Made by a program: the position numbers and the translations under genes
Source: an uncultured Fluviicola sp.
GTDB lineage: Bacteria; Bacteroidota; Bacteroidia; Flavobacteriales_D; Crocinitomicaceae
Direction of reading: 5' to 3'
NCBI RefSeq assembly: GCF_902168135.1
Contig: NZ_CABHOL010000021.1
Location: forward strand, 1-64,000
DNA length: 64,000 bases
Notes under the pieces: generated by a model
The model's input: the letters and a program-made list of their open reading frames with translations, nothing else
The model's database searches: none
What the model was told of the DNA's origin: nothing
Shown here: piece after piece, positions 61,096 through 62,641 of the stretch
Numbering within the stretch: position 1 is the stretch's first letter
Layout of the letters: every line of letters starts with the position of its first letter

Positions 61096-62310
61096 TTAGC
61101 TAATTATTGTTTTCTTCACCAAATAGCGCACCGGGAAATAGGACGACAACACACTCAAAAGAACAACCATTCCCAGGATGAATAATACGTCTTTCACCTG
61201 CAGAATAATCGGGAAAGCTTCTCCGCCGGAATTCGGCATTTTCAGGAACGCAAACTGCATTTGAAGCAGACAAACACCCACACCCAAAACCAAACCGATC
61301 AAAATTCCCTTAAAGGCGATCAAAATTCCTTCGAAGAAGAAAATCCGGAAAATAAACTGCCTGGTAGCGCCAAAACGTTCCATGGTTTCGATATTTTCCT
61401 TTTTCTCGATGAAGAGCATGTTCAGGGATGCGACTAAATTAAATGCGGCCAGAACAAAAATAAACAAGAGGATCAACACCACGATCTTCTTTTCACTTTC
61501 GCTTGTCTTAAAGATCAGTTCGTTCTTTTCAGCAGCCGTTTTGACCTGGAATTTCTCCCCGAATTTAGCTTGAAGAACCGTTTTGACAGATTCAATATTC
61601 TCCTTCTCAGCATGAATATAAACCGATGTAATGTCCGAGCCATAATTCAGCTGAGTTTCCGCATAGTTGATCGGAACCAATACATCAGACATATTTACGT
61701 CTTTATTGTAATTCATTCTGCCTACTACTTTCAGCGGAGAGACCTTGAACGGACTTTTCAAACGGGTCATCGAAGCATCCCTGAGCGGTGTGTAGAGCAT
61801 CAGTTCTTCGTAGCCATCCATTTCGGAAATATATCCGTCAATTTTATCCAGTAAACTTGCACCTATAACTGCGGTTGGCTGCCCGTTCTCCTCCAGGTAG
61901 GGATAGCCGTCAACCATGTGTTCTTTTAAATTGCATGCATCCGTAAACGAATAATCCACACCCACCATGCGTGCATTGATCCATTTCTTACCATGCTTAA
62001 TAATAACGGTTTCTTCAATAGCTTTTGAAACGGAAATAACTCCCGGTATTTTGCGCAGGTTATCCAGCTTAACAGTTGTAGAATCAAATGTTTTTCCTTC
62101 CAGCGAACGCATGGTGATAGCCGGATCGTAATCCGAATAAAGCTTGGAAACCATTTGCTCAATTCCGTTAAAGGCAGATAAAATAATCACCAGTGCAGCT
62201 GTAATAACCGCAATTCCGACAACCGATATACGCGTAATCCAATTAACCAGGTTTCGCTGTTTCCGGGTATATCGAAGATACCTTCTCGCTATGAAAAATG
62301 AAACCTTAAT
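61096..62310 (-). CDS. LolC/LolE-type ABC transporter permease with apparent ATT start
   Basis: 404 residues. The frame continues upstream of the GTG at 62190 with obvious family sequence: KVSFFIARRYLRYTRKQ, LVNWITRISVVGIAVITAAL, then VIILSAFNGIEQ. No ATG, GTG or TTG exists in that 40-codon part, and a TGA closes it two codons above the ATT at 62310. ATT AAG overlaps the rbfA stop (ATTAA), so translation is probably coupled. Helix 1 near residue 35, periplasmic domain about 60-270, three C-terminal helices (IVVLILLFIFVLAAFNLVASLNMLF; GILIGLVLGVGVCLLQMQFAFL; VLFILGMVVLLSVLSSYFPVRYLV). It should act in lipoprotein release to the outer membrane; the LolD ATPase is not adjacent. Confidence 0.88.
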   Translation of the reverse strand: MKVSFFIARRYLRYTRKQRNLVNWITRISVVGIAVITAALVIILSAFNGIEQMVSKLYSDYDPAITMRSLEGKTFDSTTVKLDNLRKIPGVISVSKAIEETVIIKHGKKWINARMVGVDYSFTDACNLKEHMVDGYPYLEENGQPTAVIGASLLDKIDGYISEMDGYEELMLYTPLRDASMTRLKSPFKVSPLKVVGRMNYNKDVNMSDVLVPINYAETQLNYGSDITSVYIHAEKENIESVKTVLQAKFGEKFQVKTAAEKNELIFKTSESEKKIVVLILLFIFVLAAFNLVASLNMLFIEKKENIETMERFGATRQFIFRIFFFEGILIAFKGILIGLVLGVGVCLLQMQFAFLKMPNSGGEAFPIILQVKDVLFILGMVVLLSVLSSYFPVRYLVKKTIIS

Positions 62311-62641
62311 CTTTCAATAATTTATCGATGGTTTCAGCATAATCCAAAGAATCATCGATGTAGAACAGAAGCTCCGGAATTTTATGCATGTTCTTCAAAC
62401 GTTTTCCTACCTCTCCGCGAATTTTTCGTGAATTTTCCTGGATATTTTTTAGTACTTCTTTCTTATCGGGCCCCATGAAAACGGATAAATAAATACGTGC
62501 CAAAGAAAGATCGGAAGTTACTCTTACAATCGTCACACTGACCATTGCACCCAAGCAAATCTCACGTGCATTGCGTTGAAAATAAGTCGATAATTCTTCT
62601 TGAATTACTCCTTCAACCCGGTTTTGTCTAATTGAACTCAT
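62306..62641 (-). CDS. rbfA: 30S ribosome-binding factor RbfA
   Basis: 111 residues. KH-like fold typical of RbfA: RQNRVEGVIQEELSTYF at the N-terminus, LARIYLSVFMGPDKKEV, and the C-terminal KIPELLFYIDDSLDYAETIDKLL. It takes part in 16S rRNA 5'-end maturation and cold adaptation. A TAACTTTG box lies 4 nt before the ATG. The stop overlaps the permease start. Confidence 0.95.
   Translation of the reverse strand: MSSIRQNRVEGVIQEELSTYFQRNAREICLGAMVSVTIVRVTSDLSLARIYLSVFMGPDKKEVLKNIQENSRKIRGEVGKRLKNMHKIPELLFYIDDSLDYAETIDKLLKD

Follow-up and report, generated by a model that had tools for sequence, protein, structure and literature searches.

Genes and features of the rbfA-lolE locus

The window, that is the whole 64,000-nucleotide stretch of Fluviicola DNA analysed, carries on its minus strand rbfA followed by a gene for an ABC-transporter permease, hereafter lolE (Table 1). 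Pfam places MacB_PCD at residues 28-246 and FtsX at residues 279-401 of its product, both above cut-off, and the NCBIfam lolCE model (TIGR02212) matches residues 3-394 with 174 bits (E 3.7e-51), a score below the equivalog cut-off of 362 bits, for which reason the protein is called LolC/E-like and not assigned as an equivalog. The motif FI(A/G)xRY is the N-terminal signature of LolC/E, and FIARRY is present in the product, which appears from these matches to be a LolC/E-like permease and a predicted lipoprotein transporter of the inner membrane. Together with LolD, LolC/E permeases release lipoproteins destined for the outer membrane.

The 3' end of rbfA reads AAA GAT TAA, with the stop at 62308-62306 on the minus strand, and base 62308 is common to this stop and to the ATT of lolE, giving a one-base overlap. 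The lolE frame runs TGA AAG ATT AAG GTT TCA TTT TTC ATA GCG, where TGA is codon -1 and ATT codon 1. From codon -1 to codon 45, the only NUG, CTG or stop codons are this TGA, CTG at 21 and 40, and GTG at 41. This listing agrees, coordinates included, with the initial annotation, according to which no ATG, GTG or TTG precedes the GTG at 62190, a TGA closes the frame just above, and the ATT overlaps the rbfA stop; its further claim that family sequence precedes the GTG is borne out by the positions at which MacB_PCD and the lolCE model begin.

Table 1. Features of the rbfA-lolE locus, in positions of the window
Feature	Position	Strand	Remarks
LolC/E-like ABC-transporter permease gene (lolE)	61096..62310	minus	404 aa counted from ATT, TAA stop in span; FtsX and MacB_PCD domains
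ATT, putative start codon (codon 1) of lolE	62308..62310	minus	Codon column conserved in relatives
rbfA, 5' neighbour of lolE	62306..62641	minus	Pfam RBFA E 1.3e-29; NCBIfam rbfA above cut-off
TGA closing the lolE frame two codons 5' of ATT	62314..62316	minus	Read from sequence
AAA at -13 to -11 from ATT, candidate upstream A-motif inside the end of rbfA	62321..62323	minus	A frequencies in 96 AUH loci
Codon 7 of lolE, ATA (Ile), conserved synonymously	62290..62292	minus	ATA in 89/93 loci with at least 44% identity
GTG, codon 41, first canonical in-frame start, within conserved protein; rejected as start	62188..62190	minus	Coding conservation 5' of GTG

Conservation of the ATT and its probable role as start codon

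The ATT is not a sequencing error, because the eight nearest Fluviicola relatives (L002-L009, 81-99% identity, from different genomes of which two are single-contig) all carry ATT at the same place. Further away, codon 1 is ATT in L010 (63% identity) and ATC in L011-L013 (60-62%).

Pairwise comparison of codons 2-40 in eight Fluviicola loci (L001, L003-L009) gives 573 identical, 440 synonymous and 79 non-synonymous codon pairs, with 454, 100 and 31 base differences at codon positions 3, 1 and 2, respectively. Codons 2-6 alone already give 46, 19 and 0, while in the 120 nt upstream of lolE the differences in eight Fluviicola loci are most frequent in a different phase, as rbfA would lead one to expect. 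Since the differences track the codon phase of lolE from codons 2-6 on, the frame is translated from its first codons. The ATT at 62310 is thus very probably the start codon of lolE, as far as sequence conservation can tell. What had been put forward as the one sensible start therefore very probably is one, a weak start beside rbfA that is maintained across species.

Codon 1 among relatives

We gathered lolE from genomes at each rank from genus up to phylum, a sample and not a census, which yielded 222 distinct full-length loci. The near-cognate codons AUU, AUC and AUA are denoted AUH, and canonical-type starts NUG. Among the 93 loci with at least 44% identity, codon 1 is ATT in 42, ATC in 34, ATA in 3, ATG in 8, TTG in 3, GTG in 2 and CCA in 1, so that six start-type codons account for 92 of the 93; the single CCA (L134) has a TTG one codon upstream. 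In this column Val is encoded solely by GTG and Leu solely by TTG, as for start codons.

In the wider set of 128 relatives used for the tree below, 96 have AUH at codon 1, of which 89 are strict, i.e. without an in-frame canonical start upstream. These 96 loci show 34 different codons at codon 0 against three at codon 1. An in-frame canonical codon lies upstream in the other seven, directly at codon 0 in four of them (L201, L324, L326 and L337), and as an ATG 8 or 11 codons upstream in L175 and L199; judged by these seven loci, some relatives do not start lolE at the near-cognate codon. Beyond the 128, ATT stands in the codon 1 column of two loci, L221, which is strict and belongs to another family, and L093 (31% identity), which is probably misaligned at this column and has an ATG two codons earlier.

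Codon 1 of the 97 loci below 39% identity is TTG in 29, GTG in 19 and ATG in 33, in contrast to Fluviicola genes at large, where the first common start is ATG in 203 of 249 ortholog pairs. Weak starts seem usual for lolE across the phylum. Three entries titled Glaciecola amylolytica or Chryseobacterium gleum (L035, CP034120.1; L038; L057) carry a lolE of the group studied here, with 84%, 54% and 40% identity, and their labels look wrong.

History of the start codon

A FastTree tree was built from the 128 lolE loci with at least 37.2% identity (94 of the 222 were dropped), with the first 12 codons excluded and the root placed according to our own reading. Parsimony counts two changes between AUH and NUG by codon 1 alone, and six if a NUG one or two codons upstream is taken as the start, the count being the same without L332. 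We read the six as one putative gain and about five losses. These losses end in GTG or TTG (L128/L211, L134, L201, L324/L326/L337 and L048/L050/L054); L175, L180 and L199, whose canonical codons lie 8 to 19 places upstream, were not scored as losses. The ATC locus L332, on a long branch, groups with the AUH clade with a support of 46 only; if it is placed elsewhere, AUH may be older and have been lost in a Brumimicrobium-type clade (12 rows, mostly ATG).

Within AUH, the codon changed among ATT, ATC and ATA 21 (strict) to 24 times, with a parsimony split of about 14 changes from ATT to ATC, 4 from ATC to ATT and 5 from ATT to ATA. Transitions between T and C make up about 18 of 23 of these changes, so that ATG is best compared with ATA, to which five changes lead, against none to ATG; in the 128-locus tree, ATG stands at codon 1 in no row inside the AUH clade. 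Given this drift among the three AUH codons, with ATG absent from the clade, selection has probably conserved the codon as a weak start, which would hold LolE output down.

Upstream context

rbfA lies upstream of lolE in all 96 AUH loci, with its stop at most 12 nt from codon 1 in 82 and at most 100 nt in all; the gap exceeds 12 nt in 14. Among relatives of the 128-row set with a NUG start, rbfA was found for 22 of 27 and ends at most 12 nt before the start in 17 of these 22. In some distant relatives rbfA stands 645-1017 nt upstream, with about one gene between, and the starts seen there are ATG, GTG and TTG, none AUH. Distances from the rbfA stop to codon 1 include -5, -1, 2, 3, 4, 5, 6, 7, 12, 28 nt and more, and because they differ among loci all three frame relations occur. 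The initial annotation had taken ATT to replace a usual ATGA overlap, but a 4-nt overlap with rbfA is found in only 2 of 208 loci, both with TTG.

Shine-Dalgarno-like 5-mers occur in 4 of the 96 AUH loci, and support of the kind found at sigR, cvfC1 and ccpN is not seen. No unusual RNA folding was found at the lolE start (mean z 0.35 over the 96 AUH loci, against mononucleotide shuffles). For F. johnsoniae, an upstream A-motif is reported at -12 and -13 (PMC9976891, PMC8710568). In the 96 AUH loci, the frequency of A at -11, -12 and -13 from codon 1 is 0.93, 0.83 and 0.62; ATG genes of one Fluviicola (n=195) peak at the same place but lower, with 0.59, 0.56 and 0.48. A at -11 stays between 0.73 and 1.00 in every gap class with at least three loci. 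As proof of the start the motif is weakened by the end of rbfA, which is likewise rich in A at constant positions: where the gap is above 12 nt (14 loci), A reaches 1.00 and 0.93 at -5 and -6 from the rbfA stop, and 0.86, 0.71 and 0.64 at -11, -12 and -13 from codon 1. The A-motif fits initiation at codon 1, without being decisive or cleanly separable from the end of rbfA.

Gene specificity of the near-cognate start

Comparison of 250 ortholog pairs over about 400 kb of two Fluviicola genomes (G003 and G013) flagged ten pairs for a non-NUG start, including lolE; this comparison is blind to AUH starts with a NUG inside the first 8 codons. Six of the others, when read, hold a canonical start, and lolE is the sole pair among the 250 that keeps a non-NUG start, the pairs A_-_1, A_-_340002 and A_-_99702 standing outside the six read as canonical. 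A_-_1 is cut at an edge and A_-_340002 has no shared start; the latter is presumably a frame over tRNA genes. A larger flagged list (86 and 9 pairs), in which shadow frames predominated, gave way to this comparison.

infC in the same genomes

The start of infC was read in 59 genomes, for 57 of which the lolE start is known. Of the 30 genomes with a strict AUH lolE, 29 have an infC starting with ATG, the exception being G461, from another family, whose infC has no canonical codon and shows ATC-GC at the N-terminus. infC also has ATG in the four genomes where AUH lolE comes with a canonical codon upstream. Among the 23 genomes with other lolE starts, infC has a canonical codon in 13 and none in 10; in G032 and G033 the canonical codon is preceded by ATA-GC. 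In the two genomes outside the 57, G036 and G038, infC has no canonical codon. The AUH clade of lolE is nested inside the infC-ATG clade and the genomes are related; the association may therefore be a single coincidence, and no P value is given. A Fisher value was discarded because it had scored G036 and G038 as non-AUH and G284, G324, G401 and G376 as AUH.

Fluviicola and most other sampled genera of Crocinitomicaceae start infC with ATG, while in several relatives it can start only at ATA, ATC or ATT. Altogether, infC lacks a canonical start before its conserved core in 13 of the 59 genomes (L145, L146, L148, L151, L152, L155-L157, L166, L169, L297, L298 and L304), most of which show ATA-GC or ATC-GC at that point, some with GGAGG upstream. 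The comparison with infC drawn by the initial annotation was apt, but it is reversed in this clade, Fluviicola infC itself starting with ATG.

Codon 7

At codon 7, lolE has ATA in 121 of the 128 tree loci, regardless of the start codon. This codon is the most biased column of the gene both among the loci with at least 44% identity (Table 1) and among the other Ile-bearing loci (ATA in 68 of 102). In 119 distinct loci it encodes Ile in 109 and is ATA in 84, against 0-40% ATA in the remaining Ile columns of 40 or more entries. In Fluviicola genes of two genomes (L254-L293), ATA makes up 63 of 350 Ile codons at codons 2-15 versus 306 of 6458 elsewhere, about 4-fold more, and early ATA is better conserved (34 of 43 at codons 2-15 versus 67 of 178 elsewhere). 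This enrichment and conservation weaken the idea that codon 7 is special to lolE alone, and it may be an extreme case of a general early-codon effect.

Two further explanations were rejected. ATA-GC at codons 7-8 could be kept for a TAG stop in the +1 frame, but in the window this +1 frame is open only from the TAA at 62324, and up to the TAG it contains no ATG, GTG or TTG; moreover, 4 of 11 loci with Ser next, where no stop arises, retain ATA, as do 152 of 183 with Ala. An internal AUA start at codon 7, of the infC type, is contradicted by the frequency of A at -11, -12 and -13 from it (0.00, 0.19 and 0.15).

Discussion

We consider it likely that lolE starts at the ATT at 62310 and that this near-cognate codon keeps LolE synthesis low, is held so by selection, and receives its ribosomes by re-initiation after rbfA. 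AUH codons initiate poorly owing to their third-base mismatch with the initiator tRNA. Ribosomes finishing rbfA would re-initiate at the AUH codon of lolE, or would be recruited upstream of it, perhaps via the A-motif; the mismatch would then make initiation poor and LolE synthesis low, and IF3 would set how low, as for other AUH starts. Such IF3-dependent control is plausible by analogy, and the distance between both genes makes a coupling of lolE initiation to rbfA plausible. As for the reason to limit LolE, our guess is an excess of permease relative to its ATPase.

The alternative that fares best, unlikely as we hold it to be, is that the AUH start is a neutral relic, good enough through its place after rbfA and under no selection for weakness. 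The short gap in 82 of 96 loci could make codon identity matter little, but through 21-24 changes among ATT, ATC and ATA, codon 1 is nowhere ATG in the clade although ATG is one base away, its losses end in GTG or TTG, and the loci below 39% identity also make wide use of TTG and GTG beside ATG. A shade more doubtful is the idea that in Crocinitomicaceae the IF3-sensed start moved from infC, which would have lost its own AUA self-control, to lolE (AUU, AUC or AUA), so that IF3 or 30S maturation, announced by rbfA, would set the rate of lipoprotein export. Considerably less probable is a general relaxation of start selection in the lineage, through an altered IF3, tRNA or ribosome, lolE then being one of many AUH genes: infC has ATG in place of an ATA start in the same clade, which would fit, but no gene of this kind other than lolE turned up in the 250 ortholog pairs, the three flagged pairs aside. 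Initiation at codon 41 (GTG, 62190), where the frame has its first canonical start, with the 40 codons above it untranslated, is barely credible against the coding constraint on codons 2-40 (440 synonymous versus 79 non-synonymous), the beginning of the LolE protein family near codon 1, and the scatter of the first downstream NUG, whose position varies between codons 12 and 53 among the 96 AUH loci. Just as hard to credit is an RbfA-LolE fusion made by +1 frameshifting or stop readthrough, which the one-base overlap in Fluviicola might invite, but which is opposed by the variable gap with its three frame relations and by the restriction of codon 1 to AUH or NUG; to our knowledge, GAT-TAA is not a slippery site.

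A weak lolE start held by selection would join a small group of known cases. Like lolE, infC (IF3) has a conserved weak start, AUU, AUA or AUC, and both are expected to be IF3-sensitive; infC differs in that it autoregulates and in that some ATA- or ATC-start copies have a GGAGG-like Shine-Dalgarno sequence (L151, L152, L155, L298; L166), of which lolE has almost none (4 of 96). The pcnB gene of E. coli reportedly has an AUU start (work of Binns and Masters from 2002) that limits its expression, as we propose for lolE; it is a Proteobacteria gene and, unlike lolE, not beside rbfA.

According to PMC5472188, sigR of Streptomyces, which had been mis-annotated, starts with GTC in 32 of 34 species and with GTT in 2, and its GTC start is repressed by IF3, which destabilises such initiation complexes. 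It resembles lolE in its conserved non-canonical start, and differs from it by an extended Shine-Dalgarno sequence (AGGAGGTG), by encoding a sigma factor and by its codon class. For Staphylococcus aureus, PMC13009471 describes conserved starts of cvfC1 (AUU) and ccpN (AUA) giving about 10% of AUG expression, up to 30% for ccpN in rich medium; extended Shine-Dalgarno pairing supports these starts, unlike that of lolE. Ribosomes of Bacteroidia hide their anti-Shine-Dalgarno (PMC9976891). Compared with infC, pcnB, sigR, cvfC1 and ccpN, lolE thus likewise has a conserved inefficient start, but stands apart by its lack of Shine-Dalgarno support, its Shine-Dalgarno-blind lineage and its rbfA neighbour.

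Among the titles listed by our literature searches, which covered open-licence papers, none dealt with the start of lolE or with AUH initiation in Bacteroidota. In three Flavobacterium initiation papers (PMC9976891, PMC8710568 and PMC6847099), a term search found infC absent and AUU only in PMC8710568, within an engineered sequence.

For annotation, these results are a warning, since gene finders may remove about 40 N-terminal residues of LolE together with the first helix, and are likely doing so in Crocinitomicaceae. Conserved non-canonical starts have been well described for few bacterial genes, and the examples in the papers cited here rely on Shine-Dalgarno pairing. In the present lineage of Bacteroidia, whose ribosomes ignore the Shine-Dalgarno sequence, a gene for envelope transport has, across many substitutions, kept what is very probably a non-canonical start, and the occurrence of ATT, ATC, ATA, GTG, TTG and ATG at one site would offer a natural series for the study of weak starts without Shine-Dalgarno pairing.
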